Positions 11,613 to 25,418 of a stretch of 64,000 bases of DNA are shown here, one piece after another. Origin of the DNA: Rubripirellula reticaptiva (GTDB lineage Bacteria; Planctomycetota; Planctomycetia; Pirellulales; Pirellulaceae); NCBI RefSeq assembly GCF_007860175.1, contig NZ_SJPX01000005.1, forward strand, positions 868,001-932,000. Reading direction: 5' to 3'. The notes below the pieces were generated by a model. The model worked only from the letters and a program-made list of their open reading frames with translations, was not told the DNA's origin and did no database searches. Position 1 is the first letter of the stretch. Every line of letters begins with the position of its first letter. The translations under genes were made by a program, and so were the position numbers.

Positions 11613-12821
11613 ATGAAGTTAAAATTCCGTCAGTACGGAATGCGATTTTACCCTCGGGGAAGCAACTTCGCTCCTCCTAATCCGCCACCACCCCCCCGTT
11701 TGGTCGTTTTTCCAGTGAATCGAGACTCCGATTCTGACGCCTCGAAGTCCTGTAACGATCAGGCTTGGATTGCCGAAGGACTGCCAATCAACGCGTTCGG
11801 TAAAGCCCTGCGTCGCCGATTTGGTGGTCGCGTCCAACGTGTCAGCATTGATGCGGGATTCACATGCCCGAACGTCGACGGAGCCGTCACGCGGGGCGGA
11901 TGCAATTTTTGCGACAATCGATCATTCAGCCCGTCCCGGCGAGTTCGACTGAAACAGGTCCACGACCAACTCACCGGCGGGATCATCACGGTCCGCAAGC
12001 GGTACAACAAAGTCGCCGGGTTTATCGCGTATTTCCAGCCTGCCACCAACACCTACGCGCCGGTTGAACAGCTACGTGAAGTTTACGAGTTAGCGCTCAG
12101 CCTCAACGACTCACCGGATTTTCACGACGAAGTGGTAGGACTTGCGATCGGGACGCGACCGGATTGTCTGCCCGAGTCGGTGTTGTCGTTGATCGAAGAA
12201 CTTGCCCAGCGGACCTATGTTTCGCTGGAATACGGTATGCAAACGATCCACGACGCGGGATTGGTTTGGATGAATCGGGCTCACACCCACGCCGACATGG
12301 TCAACGCGATCGACCGCAGCCGAGGCCGTGGGTTTGAGATGTGCGGTCACGTGATCCTGGGGATTCCCGGTGAAACGCACGAAATGATGATGCAAACCGC
12401 TGCCGAAATCGGACGCCTTGGTTTCGATGCAATCAAACTGCACAATCTTTACGCCGTCCACGGCACGCCGCTTGGGGATCAAGTCTTGGCCGGCGAAGTT
12501 CGGATGATGGAACGCGAAATCTACTTACAAACGGTCGTCGATTTTCTTGAACGCATTCCGCCTGATGTAGTGGTCGAGCGGATCAGCGGCGACGCTCCGT
12601 CCGACTTTCTGATCGAGCCAAAATGGTGCCTCGAAAAATCTTCTTTACGCAGCGACGTCGAAGCCGAACTCGCTCGCCGTGGAACTCGCCAGGGCAGCCA
12701 CTTTGTGCCTCCGGCGCAGCCACCAGCAGATCGCCCCGTTCCGGAGGACAAGACACCGGATTCGATCCGGGCTAAAATCGAGACGCGAGGCCGCTTGCCA
12801 GTACTTAAGATGGAATCGTAA
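11613..12821 (+). CDS. TIGR01212-type (YhcC-like) radical SAM protein
   Basis: A 402-residue radical SAM protein. The iron-sulphur cluster motif is in FTCPNVDGAVTRGGCNFCDN (about residues 88-107), with the widely spaced Cys-x11-Cys-x2-Cys pattern of the YhcC/TIGR01212 family rather than plain CxxxCxxC. YFQPATNTYAP, LAIGTRPDCL and MCGHVILGIPGETHEMM follow, all typical of this family. Its substrate is not firmly established. The first 50 residues are Pro- and Asp-rich and not part of the family core, so translation may start downstream of the ATG at 11613; an ATG at 11640 is also possible. The start lies 37 bases from the divergent FHA gene. Confidence 0.9.
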   Translation: MKLKFRQYGMRFYPRGSNFAPPNPPPPPRLVVFPVNRDSDSDASKSCNDQAWIAEGLPINAFGKALRRRFGGRVQRVSIDAGFTCPNVDGAVTRGGCNFCDNRSFSPSRRVRLKQVHDQLTGGIITVRKRYNKVAGFIAYFQPATNTYAPVEQLREVYELALSLNDSPDFHDEVVGLAIGTRPDCLPESVLSLIEELAQRTYVSLEYGMQTIHDAGLVWMNRAHTHADMVNAIDRSRGRGFEMCGHVILGIPGETHEMMMQTAAEIGRLGFDAIKLHNLYAVHGTPLGDQVLAGEVRMMEREIYLQTVVDFLERIPPDVVVERISGDAPSDFLIEPKWCLEKSSLRSDVEAELARRGTRQGSHFVPPAQPPADRPVPEDKTPDSIRAKIETRGRLPVLKMES

Positions 12822-13870: not shown

Positions 13871-14755
13871 TCAGGCACCAGTCGGGACTTCGGTTGAATC
13901 CATGGTCTTTGTTGGCGTCGCGACTGCAATCGACTGCACTCGATTGACGATATGGTTGACCAATACTGCTCGGTCTTCGGCCAGGATTGCGACGTGGTCC
14001 ATGGCAGCAAAGTAATGACTCGACACGTACGGTTCGCCGGCGAGTTCTGGAAACATTTCGGTGAACTGTCCGGCATAATTGAAGTATTCACCGACTCCGC
14101 CAGTGTAGACAAAATGCATTTGCACTTTGCGACGAGCCAACTGCTTCAGTTCTTGAACCGATTGATCACGTGAAGGGAATTCACGGACGTCCGTACCGGG
14201 TTGCAGTGAACTTGAAATCTCGTTGTCGTCCACACCGATTCGTTTTACCAGCTTCATCCATTTGCTAGGTCGCAGAATCCGTGGCAACGTATGACCGATA
14301 AACCGATGAACGTGAAATCCTGGCGTGCGATAGCCACAACCGTCCATCGCAATCACGCCAACCACGCGTTCATCAGATAACGCCGCATGAACCGAATCGT
14401 CTGCACCGCTGCACAAACCAAACAACACGACTTGTCGCGATTTTGTATGTTTCAAAATCCAGTCAATCGCTTGAGCAATCTCGTTTGCGGCACGGTCAAT
14501 CGATCTGCCTGTTACACCGACGCCAAGACTCTCGCCAATTCCCGATAAATCGAATCGCAACGACGGAATACCGATCGTCGACAATTCGTTTGCTAAATCA
14601 ACGTGCAATCGAAACGGGCCGCTGTGATGCAACATACCCGGTGTAACCATCACCACAGCAACGCCAGACATTGACTCGGCATCTGCGTTCTTCCAAACAC
14701 CGAGCAGGTGCTCGTACTTCCCAAACACGATCGCTTGTTGGTCTGGCATGTTCAT
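13871..14755 (-). CDS. Alpha/beta hydrolase, exosortase-A-hydrolase-1-like
   Basis: A 294-residue alpha/beta-hydrolase-fold protein. VVMVTPGMLHHSGPFRLH, PSLRFDLSGIGES (residues 64-76) and VVLFGLCSGADDS (109-121) mark the oxyanion strand, the strand before helix A and the nucleophile elbow. The elbow reads Gly113-Leu-Cys115-Ser-Gly117, so Cys occupies the usual Ser position. The pattern resembles hydrolase 1 of exosortase A loci, where GLCDAAS is usual. It is the last gene of a three-gene operon; its ATG overlaps the stop of the adenylation-carrier gene (14752-14755). It probably acts on the product bound to that carrier, but no substrate is known. An ATG at 14749 is an alternative start. Confidence 0.85.
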   Translation of the reverse strand: MNMPDQQAIVFGKYEHLLGVWKNADAESMSGVAVVMVTPGMLHHSGPFRLHVDLANELSTIGIPSLRFDLSGIGESLGVGVTGRSIDRAANEIAQAIDWILKHTKSRQVVLFGLCSGADDSVHAALSDERVVGVIAMDGCGYRTPGFHVHRFIGHTLPRILRPSKWMKLVKRIGVDDNEISSSLQPGTDVREFPSRDQSVQELKQLARRKVQMHFVYTGGVGEYFNYAGQFTEMFPELAGEPYVSSHYFAAMDHVAILAEDRAVLVNHIVNRVQSIAVATPTKTMDSTEVPTGA

Positions 14756-17484
14756 TGTGCTCGCTCCGGCCGACCGAATTGATTTAAAATCGCACGAAAA
14801 CTTTCTGGCGAAGAAAATGCGCTCTCGGTGTAGCGAGATTCATCCCACGCTGCGACGTCCGCAGTTTGAATCACATAACGTTGGTCTCGTACTTGTCGTG
14901 CCAACCACTGCGCCGCCTCTTCCGAAGTGTCCCAGTGATCGGTCAACACGGTCGTGTACTTTTCATCCAGACTTGATGCCTGATCCAAACAAAGCCCAGA
15001 CAAGCTGACACGTTTTTCGGAACTCATTCGTTGCCCATAGCACTGATCAATCGGCCCAGCCTCGCGAACAACGTTGAATCGGGACAGCGACGTCAGCGCC
15101 TCGTGATGGAATCGATCCACCGTTTCCAAAAACCGCTGCCCACTGACCACAGGATCCCAAAGAACAACCCGATCAAACGTTTCCGGATCCACTGTCGCAG
15201 CGATCGTCGCACCGATTCGCAATCCGATTGCCGAGACGTTCTCGATCCCGGTTCGGGTAACCAAAAAGTTCTTGGCGTCCACCAAGTTTTGACGCATCAA
15301 GTCGGCGGTTAGTTTTTCGCAGTCGCCTTCGGAATTTCCTGTCGACGCGTAATCGAACCTCAAGACTTCATGCCCCGCCTTGCACAACTGGATCGCCAGT
15401 TGCTGCAAATTCCGGTGCCCGCGAGCGTACTCATGACCGATCGAATGGCACATCACAATCGCTCGTCCCGTCGAACCGGCCCCAATCGATTTCGACCGAG
15501 GCGAATAGCGAACCGCGTATAGTCGATCAGCGCCGCTGACAAAATAGTCGGCATCCACCATCGGCAACTGATTTCGGAAGACCCGAATGTCTTCGTCACT
15601 GTCCTGTGACGATTGATTCGGACCACAACCACTCGTGAGTTGTTCCAAATGACGGGCGGATGCAGCGATGGTTGGATTGGCGAAGAAGTCGCGAACGGGC
15701 AACTCGACGTTCCGTTCGGTTGTCAAACGAGCCACCACCTGGGTGACTAGCAATGAACTGCCGCCAAGCAAAAAGAAGTCATCGTGAATGCCGATCTCGG
15801 GGACGTTCAACACGTCCTGCCACAACTCGACCAAGTAACGTTCGACATCGCTGCGTGGCGCCACGTAAGCGTCGTCTCGGGGCACCACACCCTCGCTAGG
15901 CGATGGCAATTGCGGGCGGTCAATTTTTCCGTTAATCGTTTTCGGAAAGGATTTGATAAACACGTACCGCGTCGGGACCATGTAGGCTGGCAACTTTTGC
16001 CGCAGAAAGTTTGCGATATCGCGTGCTGAGTCTTCTTTGCGATGGTTCGCCTGTTCAACGGCAACGTAAGCGACCAAGTACTTTTTCCCGTCGACTTCGT
16101 CATAGCTGACCAACGACTCGAGAACTCGTTCGTGTTCATTTACGACTGCCTCGATTTCCGCTGGTTCGATTCGGTACGATCCTAATTTGATTTGATGATC
16201 CATCCGACCGCCAAAATCAATGTTCCCATCCGGCAACCAGCGGGCCACGTCACCGGTTCGATACAATCGGCGCGAATGGCCATTGATGTCCGTTTCAATG
16301 AACGCGGCCTCGGTCAGGTCAGGCCGATTGTGGTATCCCAACGCTAATGCCGGTCCCGCCAGAAACAGTTGTCCCGTTTCACCTTCACCAAGCACTTTGC
16401 GGTCTTTGTCCAAAATGAACGCCTCGTAACGCTTCATCGGTTTGCCGATCGGCATGTTGGCGGCGTCGAACTGATCGTTGGGGATGAACACAGTTGCGCT
16501 AACGGTGGCTTCGGTTGGCCCGTAAGCATTGCACCAAAGCACCGGGTGATCACACAGATGCTGCCAACGCCGATAGTGCTGTACCGATACCTTTTCGCCG
16601 GTCACGATCATCAGCCGAATCGATGCGGGAACTTTGGCACCGGTAGCCACCATCAGGTCAACCCACTGGTGCCAGTACGCGGTGGCCAAGTGAATCGCAG
16701 TCACATCAAAGCGATCAACCAATGACGAAAGTTCATTGCGATCGTTCGCTCGTTCACGCGGGCGGACCACGACACAACCACCGGTCAACAGTGGCGGAAA
16801 GATCTCTTCGATTGCGATGTCAAAGTTCAATGTCGAAAACTGTAACGTTCGATCGTCGGGACTGATTTGATAACACTCGATGTCGGCAAAGCAATAGGTC
16901 GCCAGCGCCGAGTGCTGGATCTCGACACCTTTTGGCTTCCCCGTCGATCCAGACGTGTACATGATGTACGCCAAATCGTCCGGCGATATTGAAGGGAACA
17001 ACAGATCGGTTTCGCTGACCGCATCACTCGCAACGAATGCCGAATCGCAATTGATCCACTGGCAAAGCGAAGCTTCATCACCAACAAGCTTCTTACCGAT
17101 CGGTTCTTCGTAGTGAGGATGCCCCAGAATCGTCGCGATCGCAGCATCGCTGACCATGTAACGAAGCCGATCTACGGGGTATTCGGGATCGAGTGGAACG
17201 AAAATGGCACCAAGCTTCATGACCGCGATCATCGCCGCGATCGCTTCGGGGGAACGGTCAACGCACATGCCGACGCATTGCCGTGGCCCAATACCGGTCA
17301 AACGCAGCCGCATCGCAATTGCGTTGGCCATCGCATCAAGTTGCGAGTAAGTCCACTGGCCGTCTTCGGAAACAATCGCAGTTCGATCCGGCGTTTGCGT
17401 CCATTGACGCATCCACAGGATCGGAAACGCAATCAGTTCTTCGGCCACGACTGCGTCATCGGTTTCGTATCGGCCAGCCATCAT
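14752..17484 (-). CDS. NRPS-like adenylation-carrier protein with C-terminal alpha/beta hydrolase domain
   Basis: A 910-residue protein with three parts. Residues 20-530 form an amino-acid adenylation domain: A3 YTSGSTGKPKG (176-186), A5 NAYGPTEA (319-326), A7 YRTGD (408-412), and A10 NGKID with Lys520. Asp222 in NFDIAIEEIF sits where NRPS domains bind the alpha-amino group. Residues 545-615 are a carrier domain with LGGSSL, phosphopantetheine Ser577. Residues 640-910 are an alpha/beta-hydrolase fold (VMCHSIGHEYARG, LRFDYASTGNSEG) whose elbow reads GLRIG, with Arg756 where Ser is expected, as in exosortase-A hydrolase 2. No condensation, thioesterase or reductase domain is present. It is coupled by ATGA overlaps to both operon neighbours. 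Confidence 0.9.
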   Translation of the reverse strand: MMAGRYETDDAVVAEELIAFPILWMRQWTQTPDRTAIVSEDGQWTYSQLDAMANAIAMRLRLTGIGPRQCVGMCVDRSPEAIAAMIAVMKLGAIFVPLDPEYPVDRLRYMVSDAAIATILGHPHYEEPIGKKLVGDEASLCQWINCDSAFVASDAVSETDLLFPSISPDDLAYIMYTSGSTGKPKGVEIQHSALATYCFADIECYQISPDDRTLQFSTLNFDIAIEEIFPPLLTGGCVVVRPRERANDRNELSSLVDRFDVTAIHLATAYWHQWVDLMVATGAKVPASIRLMIVTGEKVSVQHYRRWQHLCDHPVLWCNAYGPTEATVSATVFIPNDQFDAANMPIGKPMKRYEAFILDKDRKVLGEGETGQLFLAGPALALGYHNRPDLTEAAFIETDINGHSRRLYRTGDVARWLPDGNIDFGGRMDHQIKLGSYRIEPAEIEAVVNEHERVLESLVSYDEVDGKKYLVAYVAVEQANHRKEDSARDIANFLRQKLPAYMVPTRYVFIKSFPKTINGKIDRPQLPSPSEGVVPRDDAYVAPRSDVERYLVELWQDVLNVPEIGIHDDFFLLGGSSLLVTQVVARLTTERNVELPVRDFFANPTIAASARHLEQLTSGCGPNQSSQDSDEDIRVFRNQLPMVDADYFVSGADRLYAVRYSPRSKSIGAGSTGRAIVMCHSIGHEYARGHRNLQQLAIQLCKAGHEVLRFDYASTGNSEGDCEKLTADLMRQNLVDAKNFLVTRTGIENVSAIGLRIGATIAATVDPETFDRVVLWDPVVSGQRFLETVDRFHHEALTSLSRFNVVREAGPIDQCYGQRMSSEKRVSLSGLCLDQASSLDEKYTTVLTDHWDTSEEAAQWLARQVRDQRYVIQTADVAAWDESRYTESAFSSPESFRAILNQFGRPERAQ

Positions 17485-18815
17485 TGTCCGGTTGCACCCG
17501 CCGAAAAGGATGCCATGAACGCAGGCGACGCCTGACCTGCACTGAGATCCAGCACCACTGCCTGTGGTCGTTCCGCTGCGGCGGCATCGATCGCCGAGCC
17601 TAAAATCTGCAGTCCTTCGATAAGCAATGGAACTTCGATTGTCAGAGCGGGCAATAATTTCAGCACCTGATCGTCGGCGCCAGCACCTTCAATCAACAGA
17701 CCGTTTGCGAAACAATGGCGAATCACTTTGCCTGCAAACTCACCTTGCTGCACATCCAGTCCCCAGATCAGTCCGCGACCGCGACGCTGGAACCCCAGAC
17801 TCGCGTGCTGATCACAGACCTTCGCCAGCCAAGCCTGCACAATCTCGCTGCGTTCCTGGATTTGCGACTCAAAAGTGGGATCGGCCCAATGCTGAAGCAC
17901 CGCAGCGGCTGCAACGAACGCCAAGTTGTTTCCGCGAAACGTTCCGGTGTGTTCACCGGGACGCCACGTGTCTCGATCACGACGGATCAGCACCAACGAC
18001 ATCGGCAAACCGCCACCGATCGATTTGGACAAGCAAACCACGTCCGGCTTGATGCCTGAAGCCTCGAAACTAAAGAATGCACCGGTGCGACCGTTGCCGA
18101 CTTGAATGTCATCAATGATCAGCATGATTTGATGTTTGTGACAAATGCCTGCGATCCGTTTTAGCCACGCTTCGCTGGCCACGTTGATTCCGCCTTCGCC
18201 TTGAACGGTTTCCAAGATCACTGCCGCCGGCAGCGGCAATCCGCTGCTGCCATCCGACAGCATTTTGGCAAACAGCTCCGACGTATCGGTATCCCCCATG
18301 TATCCGTCAAAGGGCAAGTGAGTCACGTTGTTTCGTGCCCCATAAAATTCGCTATGAAAGTACCGGTTTCCCGTTAGCGCGAGCGACCCGAGCGAGTGGC
18401 CGTGGTAGGCGTTAGTGAACGCTATGACGTGGGAACGCTGAGTCTGTTTGCGAGCAAGTTTAATCGCTGCTTCAACCGCATTGGTACCGGTTGGCCCTGT
18501 GAACTGAACGAGATAGTCGAGATTGCGCGGTTGCAGAATCAATCGCTCGAACGATTTCAAAAAATTGACTTTCGCCGTTGTTACCGTATCAAGCGAATGT
18601 TGAATCCCGTTGCGCGAGATGTAGTCCAACAAAGCTTGCTTAGCACCAGGATGATTGTGACCATAATTCAGAGCTCCGGCACCGCAAAAAAAGTCAATGA
18701 AGCGCTTGCCATTGGCATCGAAAAGCTGTGAACCAATCGCGGTGTCAAAAACAGTGGGAAACAAACGCGAATAGCCGCGAACGTTCGATTCGATGTGCTC
18801 GATGGGATTCGTCAT
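17481..18815 (-). CDS. EctB-like diaminobutyrate--2-oxoglutarate aminotransferase
   Basis: A class III PLP aminotransferase of 444 residues, predicted to make L-2,4-diaminobutyrate from aspartate semialdehyde and glutamate. It follows EctB closely: SNVRGYSRLFPTVFD, FFCGAGALNYGHNHP, VQFTGPTGTNAVEAA, AFTNAYHGHSLGSLALTGN, ILETVQGEGGINVAS, IIDDIQVGNGRTG, and the PLP Lys in LSKSIGGGLPMS. The ATG at 18815 is chosen because AGGA lies six bases upstream; another ATG at 18818 is adjacent. No ectA or ectC is nearby, so diaminobutyrate is more likely passed to the adenylation-carrier protein whose ATG overlaps this gene's stop. A related omega-amino acid substrate cannot be excluded. Confidence 0.88.
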   Translation of the reverse strand: MTNPIEHIESNVRGYSRLFPTVFDTAIGSQLFDANGKRFIDFFCGAGALNYGHNHPGAKQALLDYISRNGIQHSLDTVTTAKVNFLKSFERLILQPRNLDYLVQFTGPTGTNAVEAAIKLARKQTQRSHVIAFTNAYHGHSLGSLALTGNRYFHSEFYGARNNVTHLPFDGYMGDTDTSELFAKMLSDGSSGLPLPAAVILETVQGEGGINVASEAWLKRIAGICHKHQIMLIIDDIQVGNGRTGAFFSFEASGIKPDVVCLSKSIGGGLPMSLVLIRRDRDTWRPGEHTGTFRGNNLAFVAAAAVLQHWADPTFESQIQERSEIVQAWLAKVCDQHASLGFQRRGRGLIWGLDVQQGEFAGKVIRHCFANGLLIEGAGADDQVLKLLPALTIEVPLLIEGLQILGSAIDAAAAERPQAVVLDLSAGQASPAFMASFSAGATGQ

Positions 18816-18826
18816 CATGTGTCCTC

Positions 18827-19403: not shown

Positions 19404-22400
19404 TCATTGGAACCATCGGCCACCCGAACGTGCCGAAGCTGAACTCGAATCATCCTCGTCTTCACTTTTACCCATCCCCGGGAACAATCGCCCCAAAGTC
19501 TGTCCAACGCCGTCAAGCGTCCGACGTTCAATTTGAACATCACTTACAGGCCCGGTCACGTCGATCGTCATCAATGTATACCGCTGACTGCGTAGAGGAC
19601 GAACAATTTTGGTGAACGTATTTTGTGGACTGACGCGAGTATTGAAAGTCAAATCCAATTCTTGCCGCCGATTCATCGTTCCGCCACCTTCCAGAGAGAC
19701 CAACGCGCCCCAAAGATGCATTTGGTTGAAGGTGAGGGAATCACCAAAAACAGTAAATTCAACCTCGCCATCAGTGAACGCAACATCCTCGGTTGGGGTG
19801 ACACTGATCAAATTCATGACCTTTACAATAAACGGCAGCTGGTACAGATTCGCGCCCGTCACTCGAGCCGCTCCGTTGCCCTTGAGCAGGTCGCTGGTGC
19901 CAAGATTCCCTTGAAGTTTTGTTTGACCGCTAAGCGTGCCAGTCCACCCGTCATCGATGTGGCCAAAATCGGCAAGTACCGTTGGAAGTTTTGCATCCTT
20001 GATCGCGACACCAACATCAAAATCGCCCGTCGACAACACAACCTGTCCGTCCAAGTCGATCGTTCCGTCGAATAGCTTGCCGCGAATTGATGGGGTACCG
20101 TTCGGTGTAGTTCCGGCCGCGCGTCCGCCCAAATCCATGCGGTCATCGTCGATCGAGAACGGGCCGCGGATGCCTGTGATCTGCAAATCGTCAACGTGCA
20201 TCGAATCGATTCGAACCTCACCTTCGGCTCGCAAAATCGATTCGTTCCGGACGCCCTTGACCGAAATTTCACCACGCAACGAATGCACGGGACCGACGTC
20301 TGCGATCCGATTGCCTTCCAATTGCAAGTCCAAGTCCCAGTTGATTGTCGGCTCGGGACGGCTCTCGTCCGGGATCGTCAATTCAGTTGTTCCGCGAACA
20401 CTGACGGGACCTCGCAACTGCAAACGTCGCATTGCTTCACGCATCTGCTCAGGCAGCGCCGCAATCAATTCGGCATCCGGTCGCAATCGGCTGCCGCTAT
20501 GCAGGTTGGTTGCCAAAACCCATCGCCCATCCGCCCCCTGAACGCAGCGACCATTCAGCGACACCTTGGATGCATCATGGCTGGCCTGCAACGATTCAAT
20601 AGTCACTTCCGAACCGTCAAACTGAACGACGCCACCGGTGACGTCCAAGCGATACGGCAGCGACGGTGGCCGGATGCTGAGAATACGATTGGTGACTTGA
20701 CCGTGTTCCCACTGACTCGCCTTCATGTTTAACGTGACCGGAGCGCTGCCGAACTTGCCAAGGGTCAGCTTGACTTCGTCCAAAACTCCGCTTGGCGAAA
20801 TGGCATCCCAGACCTGCTGAGTGGAATATGGCAACGATGAACGAAGCGATTCGTCCATGGGGACGTTCTGAGCAGTAAAGTTAAGCTGCAACTGCGAATC
20901 TTCCTTATAGCTCAACGCGGTGTCAGAGATTCGGTATTGAGCCACAAGCGGTTTTGGCGACGGCATCTGATACGCGCCGTCGCACAAAATCACTCCGGCG
21001 TTTGCATTGGTAGCCCGAAAGCCAATCAGTTTGACCAGCTGGTCTTGAACGTGAATCTTTCCCGCAACGTTGTAGAGCGGGTAGGCAAAGTTGTCGTACC
21101 GCATGTGACCATCAATCACATCAAGTTCGATCGACCGTGACTGATGTCCGTTGGCATCCGTTGCGAAGACGCCCATCGTTAACTTCATCGATCCACGCGG
21201 ATGCAGAGACCGAACGAATGATTCCAGCCCCGATGTTTCGCTAGCTCGCGGTGACAACGACTCCAACAGAGTCTTGTCGATCGGAATTGGCCCGTCGGTT
21301 TGAACGATGAACGATTTTTCTTGCGTGATGGACGGATCGATAGGCAAACGAAACGCACACAACATGCGATTGCTTGAAACACGACCACTCAGCCCCGGTG
21401 TTTCGACGATTCCGTTTCGAAGCCGAAGTTTTCCGACCACCTGCTCGATCGGATAGGGAAACTTCTCGTATCGAACATCGACACCATGGCACGTCAAGTC
21501 GGCGGCGGTTTGCCACTTTCCGTTACGAAATTCCAGAGTCGCGTCCGCATCAACTCGACCGACCGGTTGCAGTTTATGCCACTTTTGCTGCAAGTCGACG
21601 GGTAGCGTTGAGGCGAACCGATCGTCCAGCAACAACCCGCGCGTCTTCAATTCAATGTCAACGGCACCAGGCCAGCGGTGTCCGTCAAGCCGCGCCTTGG
21701 GGATCTGCAACAGAGCATCACCCAGATACGCTTGAGCGTTGCTGACCGAAATGCCCTGAGGATCACAAACGATGGCGCCGCGCAACTGAGATATCGGCTG
21801 AGGTAGAACATTGTGTTCAATTCGCCCGTCTAGAACCTTTGCTTCGACGCGGTAGTTGATTTGCCCGGACGCGGTTTGGTGATACGACAGCGAAGCGTTG
21901 CTCGTACAAGTCAAGTCCTTGGAATGCTGCAGCACGTTACACCAAGCAAGCGGTAACGCGTCGTAGAGCCGACGGTTGAAGTGCAAATTGTTTGCGGAAC
22001 AGCGTACGTCCAGCGAACCTTCTTTCTTAACGACTTTCGCATGAATGCTGCCTGCGAAATCGGCTGTACCAATGATCTCGACATCCATGTTGATGGTGCC
22101 GTCCAGCTTTTCGTCATTTAAAATCGTTATGCTGGTGAACTCGGCATCGACGGAACGGTCGACCAGTGCGTCGCCGAACATGCGGACATGAACCTGCCTC
22201 AGATCGATGCGAGGCGCTGCCGGTCCAAGCTTTGGCAGCGGCAGCAGCGATGCAAGCGAAGGTTTCCCGTCGTCCTGCATCCAAACGTTGGCGGTGACGC
22301 CTTCGACAATGACGCGGCGAGTCACCAACGGGCTCTGTTGATCAAGCAGCTTTTCGGCGTGCAGGTCACCCACCACTGTCAGGCGTTCGACACGAACCAA

Positions 22401-22730
22401 ATCGCGGCCGCCGATTCCCAACATCGACGTTGGTTCGCTGATCCGAAGGTCTTCGACAACCAGACCAACTTTGGGATCAAAGTGGCCGCGACGAATGGCG
22501 ACGTGATGATTGGGGTAGTGAGCTTGAAGCTGGCACAGAAGTTGTCGTCGCGCCGTTTCACCGATCGTCTGTGGTGCCAGCGACCAGATCGCAAAACCGG
22601 CGGCAGCAAAGATCAGCGCAGCAAGCAACCACCGCGACAGTCGTCCCGATGAATGAGGCTTCGCAGCGTCCTTGTTGCCGGCCAAATCTTCCTTGCCTTC
22701 CGGTGGCGATGCTCGAACCCACGACAACAT
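19404..22730 (-). CDS. Large AsmA/TamB-like membrane-anchored protein
   Basis: A 1108-residue protein with one N-terminal membrane anchor (WLLAALIFAAAGFAIWSL, residues 34-51) followed by a very long beta-rich region of repeating short strands with motifs such as GHFDPKVGLVVEDLRIS, LDGHRWPGAVDIELKTRGL and SIRGKLFDGTIDLDGQV. The C-terminal part (KLQGNLGTSDLLKGNGAARV, INLISVTPTEDVAF-like strands, GGGTMNRRQELDLTFNTRV) is the AsmA C-terminal pattern. Such proteins form grooved bridges for lipid transfer to the outer membrane or otherwise affect envelope assembly. The frame continues upstream into the glycosyltransferase gene; the ATG at 22730 avoids that overlap. GTG at 22757 is an alternative. 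The Ser-rich C-terminus (SEDEDDSSSASARSGG) looks disordered. Confidence 0.8.
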   Translation of the reverse strand: MLSWVRASPPEGKEDLAGNKDAAKPHSSGRLSRWLLAALIFAAAGFAIWSLAPQTIGETARRQLLCQLQAHYPNHHVAIRRGHFDPKVGLVVEDLRISEPTSMLGIGGRDLVRVERLTVVGDLHAEKLLDQQSPLVTRRVIVEGVTANVWMQDDGKPSLASLLPLPKLGPAAPRIDLRQVHVRMFGDALVDRSVDAEFTSITILNDEKLDGTINMDVEIIGTADFAGSIHAKVVKKEGSLDVRCSANNLHFNRRLYDALPLAWCNVLQHSKDLTCTSNASLSYHQTASGQINYRVEAKVLDGRIEHNVLPQPISQLRGAIVCDPQGISVSNAQAYLGDALLQIPKARLDGHRWPGAVDIELKTRGLLLDDRFASTLPVDLQQKWHKLQPVGRVDADATLEFRNGKWQTAADLTCHGVDVRYEKFPYPIEQVVGKLRLRNGIVETPGLSGRVSSNRMLCAFRLPIDPSITQEKSFIVQTDGPIPIDKTLLESLSPRASETSGLESFVRSLHPRGSMKLTMGVFATDANGHQSRSIELDVIDGHMRYDNFAYPLYNVAGKIHVQDQLVKLIGFRATNANAGVILCDGAYQMPSPKPLVAQYRISDTALSYKEDSQLQLNFTAQNVPMDESLRSSLPYSTQQVWDAISPSGVLDEVKLTLGKFGSAPVTLNMKASQWEHGQVTNRILSIRPPSLPYRLDVTGGVVQFDGSEVTIESLQASHDASKVSLNGRCVQGADGRWVLATNLHSGSRLRPDAELIAALPEQMREAMRRLQLRGPVSVRGTTELTIPDESRPEPTINWDLDLQLEGNRIADVGPVHSLRGEISVKGVRNESILRAEGEVRIDSMHVDDLQITGIRGPFSIDDDRMDLGGRAAGTTPNGTPSIRGKLFDGTIDLDGQVVLSTGDFDVGVAIKDAKLPTVLADFGHIDDGWTGTLSGQTKLQGNLGTSDLLKGNGAARVTGANLYQLPFIVKVMNLISVTPTEDVAFTDGEVEFTVFGDSLTFNQMHLWGALVSLEGGGTMNRRQELDLTFNTRVSPQNTFTKIVRPLRSQRYTLMTIDVTGPVSDVQIERRTLDGVGQTLGRLFPGMGKSEDEDDSSSASARSGGRWFQ

Positions 22731-22800
22731 CCAGTCGCCAAGATCACGAGAATCCACGCGAAATGATCGCGTTATCCGAAAGCCGATAGTACGCCCGGCG

Positions 22801-24426
22801 TCAGGCGTCAATCCAGCCCAAAAACTGCCAAAACCGATACAACCACGGTGATTGCCAAGGTGACGACAGAGCCGTCGACATGGAAATGGCACTTAAAGCT
22901 AGCAATCCAATGGCAACTCGTCGCAACCACGGCGACTCACTCCAATCATCCAGCACCGGCGCGATCATCATCAACCACAGCGGTGAAAACCACAGCATCC
23001 AACGGAAGCACGTGCTGACGCCCCCGTAATTGCGGTCAATCATTGGCCGGCTGATGTAGAAGGCCGCACACACCAATGTTGCTAGCAATATCGCAGCCGA
23101 CATGCGGCGATAGTCATCCGGACCCATCCGCAGCGAAATGAAGAACCCGATCGGCAGCAGCAGCCAGATCGGCGTCAGCGAAAACAGACCGTAGTGCCCA
23201 ACGGTCATGTTCAAAAAATATTTCACCCGCGAAGGCTCTCCAAGATCGACACCGCGGCGGTTTCCGTCCTGCCAATAGCTTCCTGGATACTCGTACCAGT
23301 CATCCCATTTTGCCAACCGCCAGCCTTCGCCGGTTGGAATCAAAGCAAACAAGTCGTCGTTGGCACGAACAACATACCGTTTTGCTTCGTCCGACGGATA
23401 AATGGTAAAAACAGCATCGTCCTCGATTAACCTGTTTGCTAGCAGCGCCGATTTCACCTGTCCCGCCAATGCAGAATTTGCTTGAGGAAGGTCAGCTTGC
23501 TTGGCCGTCGGATCCAAAACCGCGATCGTTTCGCCGACACCACGGTGGGCATACGGCGGTCGAAAGCTTTGATGGGCAATCCAGTTGGTTCCGAAAAATG
23601 CGATCGCGACTAGAGTTAGGCCGCCGACAAACGGAACAATCGAACGGCGATCCAGCCACGCACACAACACAAACCAAAACGCGGTCATCGACAAAGCTGG
23701 CAACTCGTTTGCGGCGGCGAATCCGGCAGCCAATCCAATCACTAGCCAAGCCCCTGGATTCACCGTCAATGAATCGCCTCGTTCGATCCCGGCGATACGA
23801 TCGGCCACATAAACATAGAATGCTGCTGCGACCGCCATCGCTGCCGCCGCTGGCAAGTGGTTATTCAGCGACACCGTGAACGGTAACATCATGGTGCCAA
23901 AACAAGTGAATGCGACTGCGAGTGCCTTTCCTTCCGTCGTCTGACAGACGCGGCCGATGACAAATGTAGTGCACACTAAAAACAAAGCTAAGATCGGCAG
24001 ATTGACAATCGCCAAAATCATTCGCGGCACATAAATCGGCTGTGCCGTCATCGTCATGCCGGTGCTCAGGTGCATGACCTTGTAAACACCTGCGATCATG
24101 GTCGGAAACAACGGAGGCTTGCTGCTATAGTAGTGCAGTTTTCCATCGGCGCCGGTGTGACGAACCTTGTCAATCGTTCCCCAGGGCCGTCGATTTCGGT
24201 GAATCGGATTGGCGATCGCAACTTGGCGATCGATCGCATAGGTGCCGTCTTCGACCAGACTTGCGATCGTGCACCATCGACTGCGATCATTTGCTGAAAG
24301 GAACGCCGTGTCACCTTCGGGGCTTGTCACGCAGGCGATCCGTCCCGCAGCAATTGCGATCGCAATCACGATCATGACTTGCAAAGAAACAGGTGCTAAC
24401 GTTTTGCGTTGGTTCGACAAGATCAT
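22801..24426 (-). CDS. Polytopic membrane protein, probable GT39-like glycosyltransferase
   Basis: A 541-residue inner-membrane protein with about 10-11 hydrophobic helices. An early loop contains SPEGDTAFLSANDRSRW, an acidic loop placed as in GT-C (GT39/GT83) enzymes that use polyprenyl-phosphate sugars, and YYSSKPPLFPTMIAGVYK follows, resembling their SKPPL motif. A large extracytoplasmic domain lies between LIEDDAVFTIYPSD and FLNMTVGHYG. Its start overlaps the stop of the GT2 gene (24423-24426), so the two are translationally coupled. GT2 would charge the polyprenyl phosphate and this protein would use it. The acceptor, lipid or protein, is not evident. Confidence 0.75.
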   Translation of the reverse strand: MILSNQRKTLAPVSLQVMIVIAIAIAAGRIACVTSPEGDTAFLSANDRSRWCTIASLVEDGTYAIDRQVAIANPIHRNRRPWGTIDKVRHTGADGKLHYYSSKPPLFPTMIAGVYKVMHLSTGMTMTAQPIYVPRMILAIVNLPILALFLVCTTFVIGRVCQTTEGKALAVAFTCFGTMMLPFTVSLNNHLPAAAAMAVAAAFYVYVADRIAGIERGDSLTVNPGAWLVIGLAAGFAAANELPALSMTAFWFVLCAWLDRRSIVPFVGGLTLVAIAFFGTNWIAHQSFRPPYAHRGVGETIAVLDPTAKQADLPQANSALAGQVKSALLANRLIEDDAVFTIYPSDEAKRYVVRANDDLFALIPTGEGWRLAKWDDWYEYPGSYWQDGNRRGVDLGEPSRVKYFLNMTVGHYGLFSLTPIWLLLPIGFFISLRMGPDDYRRMSAAILLATLVCAAFYISRPMIDRNYGGVSTCFRWMLWFSPLWLMMIAPVLDDWSESPWLRRVAIGLLALSAISMSTALSSPWQSPWLYRFWQFLGWIDA

Positions 24427-25418
24427 GGCAATCGTTCGGCAATGCTGTAGACGCTGTTGCGGTCGTCGGAACGCGAGACAATCAGTTCAGCCAGCAAACC
24501 GGCCAGCAGAAACTGTGCCCCCAGCAGCACCGAGAGGATGCAGTAATAGAAAATCGCCGTCTCGTGCAGGTGCAAATCCATCATTGAATCCGACAACCGC
24601 GAGACACACCAACGGACCGTCAAATAACAGATCCCAACTCCACCGGCCCCAAAAAAGAACATACCGATGCCGCCGATCAAGTGCAGCGGCCGCCCTGAAA
24701 ATCCCGTTAGCAAATAAATTGTGATCAAGTCGAGAAAGCCCTTCAACAAACGCGACACACCGTATTTGGATTGACCAAATTCACGAGCGTGGTGCAAGAC
24801 TTCGATCTCAGTGACCTTCCATCCTCGCGCCGCCGCCAACACGGGCACGAATCGATGGCGTTCGCCATACAAACGAACTTCATCAAAGATTTCGCGCCGA
24901 TACGATTTGTAACCACAATTGTGGTCATGCAACTTCACACCCGTCATGCCGCTAACCAAACCGTTGAACACGCGGCTCGGCAGCACCTTGTGCCAGGGAT
25001 CGTGCCGAACCCGTTTCCAACCGCTGACGACGTCAAATCCGTCGTCCATCTTGTTTAAGAAACGCGGAATCTCATCAGGATCATCCTGCAGGTCGGCGTC
25101 CATCGTGATCGCGATCTCGCCCTTGCACTGGGCGAAACCAGCTTCGAGTGCGGCGGCCTTGCCGAAGTTACGTCGAAACCGAATCGCGGCGGTATCGGTG
25201 TCTCGCTGCGCGAGCGACTGCATCACTTGCCACGTCCGATCGGTCGATCCATCATCGATAAAAACGATCTCACGGCGAACACCGTGTTCATTGCAGACCC
25301 TGCAAATCTCAGCATGCAGTTTTTCCAAAGAACCTTGTTCGTTCATCGCTGGGATGACAAACGACACCAACTGTTCTGCATGCTTGGTTGCCGTGGGAAG
25401 ATTGCTCGAATCACTCAA
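24423..25418 (-). CDS. GT2 polyprenyl-phosphate glycosyltransferase
   Basis: A 331-residue family 2 glycosyltransferase of the DPM1/GtrB/ArnC type that transfers a sugar from a nucleotide donor to polyprenyl phosphate at the inner membrane. VSFVIPAMNEQGSLEKL, IVFIDDGSTDRTWQVM, TMDADLQDDPDEIPRFL (the DxD motif) and CGYKSYRREIFDEVRLYG are characteristic, and two C-terminal membrane helices (GRPLHLIGGIGMFFFGAGGV, FYYCILSVLLGAQFLLAGLL) follow. The first in-frame start compatible with strand 1 is TTG at 25418. It is the first gene of a co-directional run with the GT39-like and AsmA-like genes. Confidence 0.92.
   Translation of the reverse strand: MSDSSNLPTATKHAEQLVSFVIPAMNEQGSLEKLHAEICRVCNEHGVRREIVFIDDGSTDRTWQVMQSLAQRDTDTAAIRFRRNFGKAAALEAGFAQCKGEIAITMDADLQDDPDEIPRFLNKMDDGFDVVSGWKRVRHDPWHKVLPSRVFNGLVSGMTGVKLHDHNCGYKSYRREIFDEVRLYGERHRFVPVLAAARGWKVTEIEVLHHAREFGQSKYGVSRLLKGFLDLITIYLLTGFSGRPLHLIGGIGMFFFGAGGVGICYLTVRWCVSRLSDSMMDLHLHETAIFYYCILSVLLGAQFLLAGLLAELIVSRSDDRNSVYSIAERLP

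Follow-up and report, generated by a model that had tools for sequence, protein, structure and literature searches.

An EctB-type transaminase coupled to an adenylation-carrier protein and an Arg/Cys pair of hydrolase folds in Rubripirellula reticaptiva and its family

EctB is known as the first enzyme of ectoine synthesis, where, as part of the ectABC operon, it makes L-2,4-diaminobutyrate (Dab). The present work concerns a different setting of an EctB-type enzyme, a trio of overlapping minus-strand genes (13871-18818) in a 64,000-nucleotide stretch of the planctomycete Rubripirellula reticaptiva (contig NZ_SJPX01000005.1, positions 868,001 to 932,000; the window). Here the transaminase is followed by a protein composed of an adenylation (A) domain, a peptidyl carrier (PCP) domain and a hydrolase-fold domain (H2), and by a separate alpha/beta hydrolase (H1); EctB would make Dab in this cassette as it does in the ectoine operon. 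A survey of 163 type strains reports ect clusters in 23 planctomycete species, detected by way of EctC, and its main text contains no word beginning with 'NRPS' (nonribosomal peptide synthetase) or 'orphan' (PMC13342039). A description of the cassette was not found among literature titles and the opening parts of abstracts, subscription papers being outside the scope of that search.

The part of the cassette downstream of EctB resembles other described systems. PacP, of pacidamycin synthesis, activates 2,3-diaminobutyrate, and the aminoacyl-transferring enzymes SyrC and CmaE use Cys. Passages of PMC8748450 describe CmaE, SyrC and LgnA as moving aminoacyl groups between carriers; as in the cassette, an adenylation-thiolation (A-T) loading protein stands beside a candidate or established transferase carrying the aminoacyl group. 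They differ from the cassette in that they feed NRPS lines or carriers and that LgnA uses Ser77, and the same passages mention no pairing with a dead hydrolase (PMC8748450). PacP likewise holds adenylation, carrier and thioesterase-like domains, the last believed inactive, in one protein (A-T-TE0), but transfer there proceeds by spontaneous transthiolation between T domains (PMC8748450, same passages).

A further likeness is to the exosortase-associated XrtA system, whose hydrolase 2 (TIGR03101) and hydrolase 1 (TIGR03100) are the best NCBIfam families of the window's H2 and H1. A pyridoxal phosphate (PLP) decarboxylase is a partner in the XrtA system. The cassette differs in carrying an NRPS-type A-PCP protein and EctB in place of ligase and decarboxylase, and in lacking a conserved neighbourhood; the four exosortase matches (PF09721) of the window genome all lie on contig C2 and are unlinked to the cassette on C5.

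Gene layout, EctB and the adenylation-carrier protein

The genes and domains of the cassette are as follows.

17481..18818, minus strand: P0003, EctB-type diaminobutyrate--2-oxoglutarate transaminase, 445 aa (TIGR02407, Aminotran_3; cassette EctB clade)
14752..17484, minus strand: P0002, adenylation-carrier-probably dead alpha/beta hydrolase protein, 910 aa (PF00501, PF13193, PF00550, TIGR01733)
15907..17409, minus strand: adenylation domain of P0002, residues 26-526 (NCBIfam, Pfam; pocket read at assumed GrsA anchors)
15646..15837, minus strand: peptidyl carrier domain of P0002, residues 550-613 (PF00550; phosphopantetheine serine S576 in LGGSS)
14755..15624, minus strand: H2, hydrolase-fold domain of P0002, residues 621-910 (Arg756 at the nucleophile elbow, G-L-R-I-G)
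13871..14755, minus strand: P0001, that is H1, Cys-nucleophile alpha/beta hydrolase, 294 aa (C115 in GLCSGADD)

The initial annotation had described an EctB-like aminotransferase coupled by overlapping start and stop codons to an adenylation-carrier-hydrolase protein and a further hydrolase. These open reading frames (ORFs) are confirmed, and at both junctions neighbouring frames overlap by the four bases ATGA. The ectB ORF opens with two consecutive ATGs, the second of which corresponds to the end coordinate given previously (18815), the ORF itself extending to 18818. Condensation, thioesterase and reductase domains, already stated to be missing, were matched in none of the three proteins (Pfam, E <= 0.01). 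Two phosphopantetheinyl transferase matches are present in the window genome.

P0003 scores above the curated ectB cut-off (616.9 versus 552.2 bits, NCBIfam TIGR02407) and is also matched by Pfam Aminotran_3. Its K265, within the motif SKSIGGG, is the predicted PLP lysine. Ectoine synthase EctC (PF06339) is absent from the whole window genome, which bears out the earlier statement about ectC and rules out an ectoine pathway for the trio. EctA is not listed for any of the eight scanned proteins of the trio and its surroundings, where only the best 25 families were considered for two of them and the search was not genome-wide.

P0002 matches the NRPS adenylation family above its cut-off (400.8 versus 317.4 bits, TIGR01733), and Pfam recognizes AMP-binding (PF00501), AMP-binding_C (PF13193) and PP-binding (PF00550) in it. 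It is an adenylation-carrier didomain of the NRPS type, with neither the condensation domain nor the thioesterase that would mark elongation or termination. Read at assumed GrsA anchor positions, the window's pocket is D I E H I T A V S K, and the 22 cassette domains share D-I-E-H-I/V-T-A-V-S/T-K, except that the first two positions are missing from one row. Glu occupies position 239 in 22/22 of these, as opposed to 4/26 other adenylation domains read in the same way. Among those 26, 12 have pockets beginning DILQ, which are presumably glycine-like. A Glu at position 239 fits a cationic side chain. From domain family, Glu pocket and linkage to EctB we infer that the domain would activate Dab, although the Glu proves nothing about Dab as such.

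Conservation of the cassette and the two fates of EctB

The initial annotation had named a lack of co-conservation beforehand as a possible refutation of its reading, and on this point the reading survives, the three genes being strongly co-conserved. EctB, A-PCP-H2 and H1 occur in the same order and on the same strand in all 19 loci with the trio, which excludes a chance arrangement. A long match to P0002 is found in 5 of 60 related genomes (G000, the window genome, with G001, G003, G021 and G034), and a set of 80 EctB-like loci, all in named genomes, includes 14 with the trio. Thirteen of these 14 are labelled planctomycete (for seven, the name or the genus points to Pirellulaceae); the fourteenth, L019, is a metagenome-assembled genome (MAG) labelled proteobacterium. 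The other 66 EctB-like loci comprise 52 with EctC in the fetched stretch, one (L029) considered below, and 13 with neither. In ten loci (L038, L042, L043, L045, L046, L049, L050, L051, L056 and L088) an EctB without EctC in the fetched stretch forms a tree group of its own, with hosts from Alteromonadaceae, Halieaceae, Cellvibrionaceae and others; an adenylation-like match lies close to two of these EctB genes, L045 and L046.

A census of 199 genomes of the window's own family gives a similar picture. EctB is above cut-off in 50 genomes (51 genes); 22 of these genes have EctC within 2 kb, 26 have H1 within 6 kb, none has both and three have neither. H1 matches occur in 41 of the 199 genomes and strong ones (E <= 1e-100) in 28. 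A counted EctB lies near 26 of the 28 strong H1 genes; in the remaining two, the EctB is cut by the contig start (G559) or the contig begins inside the A domain (G568). EctC is present in 27 genomes, none of which carries H1. The overlap of these 27 with the 28 strong-H1 genomes is zero, for which the probability by chance is 0.012 (two-sided Fisher 0.017), uncorrected for kinship or habitat. Five EctC genomes (G188, G460, G486, G499, G524) have no counted EctB within 3 kb, and all of these except G460 have an ectoine synthase match and no EctB match at E <= 1e-120.

The EctBs of the cassette and those of planctomycete ectoine synthesis are separate lineages. In a 50-row tree (from which the 239-aa EctB of L155 was removed), 20 cassette rows and one census row with neither neighbour (G541) form a clade (100/97) that includes none of the 11 planctomycete ectoine EctBs, so that the latter lie on other branches. 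Ten of these group with the second 'neither' row, G458 (99/97), the eleventh, G509, stands apart, and G460, the last of the 'neither' rows, sits on a very long branch. In a 62-row tree without planctomycete ectoine EctBs, reduced from 81 rows by removing 19 from Thalassospira, a branch that separates the 16 cassette rows from all others has 100% bootstrap support.

Some members of the cassette are fused. A-PCP-H2-H1 is a single chain in L004, L016 and L216 and, judged by frame length, also in G513 and G539. A gammaproteobacterial MAG labelled Granulosicoccaceae, whose label and binning are unverified, encodes a fused A-PCP-H2-H1 protein of 1186 aa (L125); its EctB (L124, the same as tree row L029) belongs to the cassette clade and its genome has no EctC.

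Clustering of the flanks, which span a few kb and are short in some regions, gives no other ORF family that recurs beyond 3 of 18 regions, so that within the fetched flanks the cassette seems self-contained. An exosortase or exopolysaccharide neighbourhood as its general context was considered and is ruled out by this lack of conserved neighbours. Among plasmids, no relative of the XrtA hydrolase pair was found at E 1e-15. A plasmid search with P0002 gave 35 records at E 1e-100; among the five listed, four are NRPS-type genes of Leptolyngbya and one is unannotated, and of two records inspected one holds NRPS/PKS (polyketide synthase) genes and one is without annotation.

The Arg and Cys hydrolase folds in the cassette and elsewhere

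Alignments of H1 and H2 used 18 of the 19 trio loci, L005 (G021) being left out as a likely duplicate of L017 with the same alignment values; for H2 a further 15-row alignment was made. A mixed H2 plus H1 MAFFT alignment was discarded, as it placed H2 rows on the H1 half, and H1 and H2 were folded separately. The elbow of H2 reads (G/A)-x-R-x-G, with Arg in 18/18 rows. Because Arg stands where Ser, Cys or Asp would be expected, H2 has no nucleophile at that site and is, on this motif, probably catalytically dead. Its region of P0002 has no Pfam match and falls below the cut-off of its best NCBIfam family (TIGR03101, E 1.5e-18, 67.2 versus 202.75 bits); the predicted fold (AlphaFold, pLDDT 82.8) nevertheless retrieves alpha/beta hydrolases in Foldseek.

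H1 has Cys at the elbow in 18/18 rows (C115, GLCSGADD), and its H254 and D138 are invariant in the alignments. A triad Cys115-Asp138-His254 is possible, with D138 as the candidate catalytic acid. H1, too, is below the cut-off of its best NCBIfam family (TIGR03100, E 9.6e-19, 67.7 versus 168.45 bits), and its predicted fold (pLDDT 78.9) is that of an alpha/beta hydrolase, for which Foldseek places DcsB sixth and GrgF tenth. GrgF is also the nearest sequence in the PDB (E 8.8e-5), its Cys aligning with C115; according to passages of PMC8902786, it joins two polyketide chains. Of the two hydrolase-fold proteins proposed by the initial annotation, both folds hold up. Their equivalence does not: the motifs point to a pair made of a probably dead domain and a Cys enzyme.

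The pair is not confined to the cassette. The H1 profile matched at least 27 of 392 genomes of the phylum, 22 of which were covered (20 fetched regions, the window genome and G048), leaving out G077, G081, G193, G212 and G407. A table of 24 loci was drawn up from 20 phylum H1 matches and L108, L109, L123 and L125, excluding L113 and L114, which match TIGR03100 weakly and are longer proteins with H1 or H2 profile scores of 20-26 bits and no Cys elbow. H1 has Cys in 24/24, a figure partly built in because loci were picked by H1-type or XrtA-type matches. H2 adjoins H1 in 19 of the 24, with Arg in 18 of these 19, all but L169. In 8/19 (L108, L125, L160, L161, L163, L164, L165, L166), H2 either shares a chain with a carrier domain or has the end of one no more than about 250 bases away, and in L164 the order is Condensation, PP-binding, then H2. 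H1 is without H2 in five loci, four of which (L170, L172, L174, L176) have a GICSGG elbow and perhaps represent a different Cys-hydrolase family.

The contexts of the pair vary. A second gene line in the window's family (L207-L211, L213-L215; L108 is similar) consists of an aminotransferase-like protein, an A-PCP-matching protein of about 1110-1170 aa, then H2 and H1; the first protein has a weak EctB-profile match and is class-III aminotransferase-like. In the single member analysed with Pfam, L209 (1-10502), the fetched part of the first protein, a PKS, has KS, AT, ACP and Aminotran_3 domains and the second protein has C-A-PCP, where C denotes condensation; a thioesterase domain was matched in neither. 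Locus L109 (2823-11727) has an acyl-CoA dehydrogenase, a tRNA-synt_2b-like protein (a match below the Pfam cut-off), DUF1839, a 968-aa frame with both H2 and H1, and then GT2. Polysaccharide-type neighbours occur at several H1-H2 loci (Poly_export at L159, GT2 at L109 and L171, MurJ-like at L175), and H2-H1 pairs are also found inside NRPS clusters of other genomes. At the one XrtA locus compared (L123 in G061), a fused pair scores above both curated cut-offs and shares the Arg and Cys elbows of the cassette; it adjoins asparagine synthase and an exosortase-associated acyltransferase, and the genome's AMP ligase (TIGR03098, above cut-off) is on another contig.

Beside the trio, the window encodes a 1162-aa protein (19404-22892) with only a weak TIGR04411 (GspN) match, adjoined by genes for a putative glycosyltransferase (22801-24426) and for a GT2 (24423-25418). 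Among the 18 regions, L110 and L111 are the only ones apart from the window in which these three lie beside the trio. A radical SAM protein (11613-12821) matches the tRNA modification family MnmL/YtqA (TIGR01212) above cut-off.

Proposed off-loading of diaminobutyrate and its alternatives

We give about even chances to a scheme in which the cassette makes Dab, loads it on its carrier and off-loads it onto an acceptor that the cassette does not encode. EctB, by family assignment, would form Dab from aspartate semialdehyde and glutamate, and the adenylation domain, by its family, Glu pocket and linkage, would activate Dab with ATP and load it on the pantetheine thiol on S576. The Arg elbow and the fusions suggest that H2, beside the carrier and with its nucleophile lost, would be a docking or positioning partner. 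H1 may then take Dab from the carrier onto Cys115 as a thioester and pass it to a nucleophile, acting as an aminoacyltransferase like SyrC or CmaE rather than as a water-using hydrolase. The acceptor could be a further carrier, or else a small molecule or glycan that offers an amine or hydroxyl group. Among possible products we think a polymer the least probable, as no condensation domain was matched. By analogy, the cassette may be seen as carrier loading plus a transferase of known type with an unusual paired hydrolase. The initial annotation, in which Dab is tethered to a carrier and handled by hydrolase folds, is as a whole partly supported.

Several observations weigh against this scheme or its parts. 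The activity of the trio proteins is inferred from sequence, structure prediction and gene context, and Dab specificity from linkage and a pocket read at assumed anchors. For H1 there is no more than a candidate catalytic acid, and its best Foldseek matches are mostly lipases and esterases, Ser enzymes (TM about 0.4-0.6, query-normalised), so that H1 may instead hydrolyse. Three census EctB genes adjoin neither EctC nor H1; one of them, in G541, belongs to the cassette clade yet lies on a 4.7-kb contig without the cassette. The 13 of 80 EctB-like loci with neither EctC nor cassette in the fetched stretch are outside planctomycetes, and the EctB of the gammaproteobacterial MAG is about 15 kb from the fused L125 protein on the same contig. 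Matches to TIGR03100 that stay under the cut-off turn up in 45 of 60 relatives and in 8 of 14 controls; TIGR03101 matches occur in 8/8 genomes tried (one above cut-off) and, below it, in 7/14 controls. A weak XrtA-family match alone therefore means little, and the case for the likeness rests on best-family rank, elbows and gene order.

Other readings are less probable. An NRPS encoded elsewhere in the genome might receive the Dab, H1 moving it from the cassette's carrier to one in that NRPS, with SyrB1/SyrC as one precedent. The A-T proteins with hydrolase-fold shuttles CmaA/CmaE and LgnB/LgnA are described in passages of PMC8748450, the window genome has other adenylation-type matches (for example a 1617-aa frame on C1), and the NRPS-embedded H2-H1 pairs point the same way; yet no NRPS gene is conserved beside the cassette in the 18 regions, and we consider such trans-loading unlikely. 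The self-contained flanks and the mutual exclusion of EctC and strong H1 would also suit a carrier-bound Dab that closes on itself or leaves as a small soluble derivative, such as a Dab dipeptide or 3-aminopyrrolidin-2-one, a five-membered lactam, which might serve as a solute in place of ectoine. Ornithine thioesters do cyclise, but a dedicated Cys enzyme with a dead partner exceeds what self-release needs and the exclusion carries no correction for kinship or habitat, which makes this more improbable still.

The hydrolase fold of H1 and its esterase-like nearest structures would fit a type II thioesterase that edits misloaded carriers, the true transfer enzyme being encoded elsewhere. Against such a role stand Cys rather than Ser in every row, the Arg-elbow partner in 18 of 24 other loci and the A-PCP fusions in some genomes, and we regard it as very unlikely. 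To the idea that the adenylation domain activates another substrate, EctB supplying an amine acceptor or serving a neighbouring pathway, we likewise assign a low probability: EctB and the cassette are closely linked and one Glu-bearing pocket recurs in 22/22.

Returning to off-loading by H1, a wider proposal is more tentative, and we lean somewhat away from it. The Arg/Cys pair might serve generally, and so far unrecognised, to off-load aminoacyl or acyl chains from their carriers. It would then be common to the Dab cassette, the PKS-NRPS lines lacking a thioesterase, the tRNA-synthetase-like/DUF1839 locus and the XrtA exopolysaccharide loci, whose hydrolases 1 and 2 have long lacked an explanation, with the Dab cassette yielding a conjugate of no known pathway. 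As a minimal system of three, sometimes two, genes, the cassette would allow direct measurement of what the exosortase-associated hydrolase pair does. With it EctB, known as the first enzyme of ectoine synthesis, gains a second conserved fate across a bacterial family.

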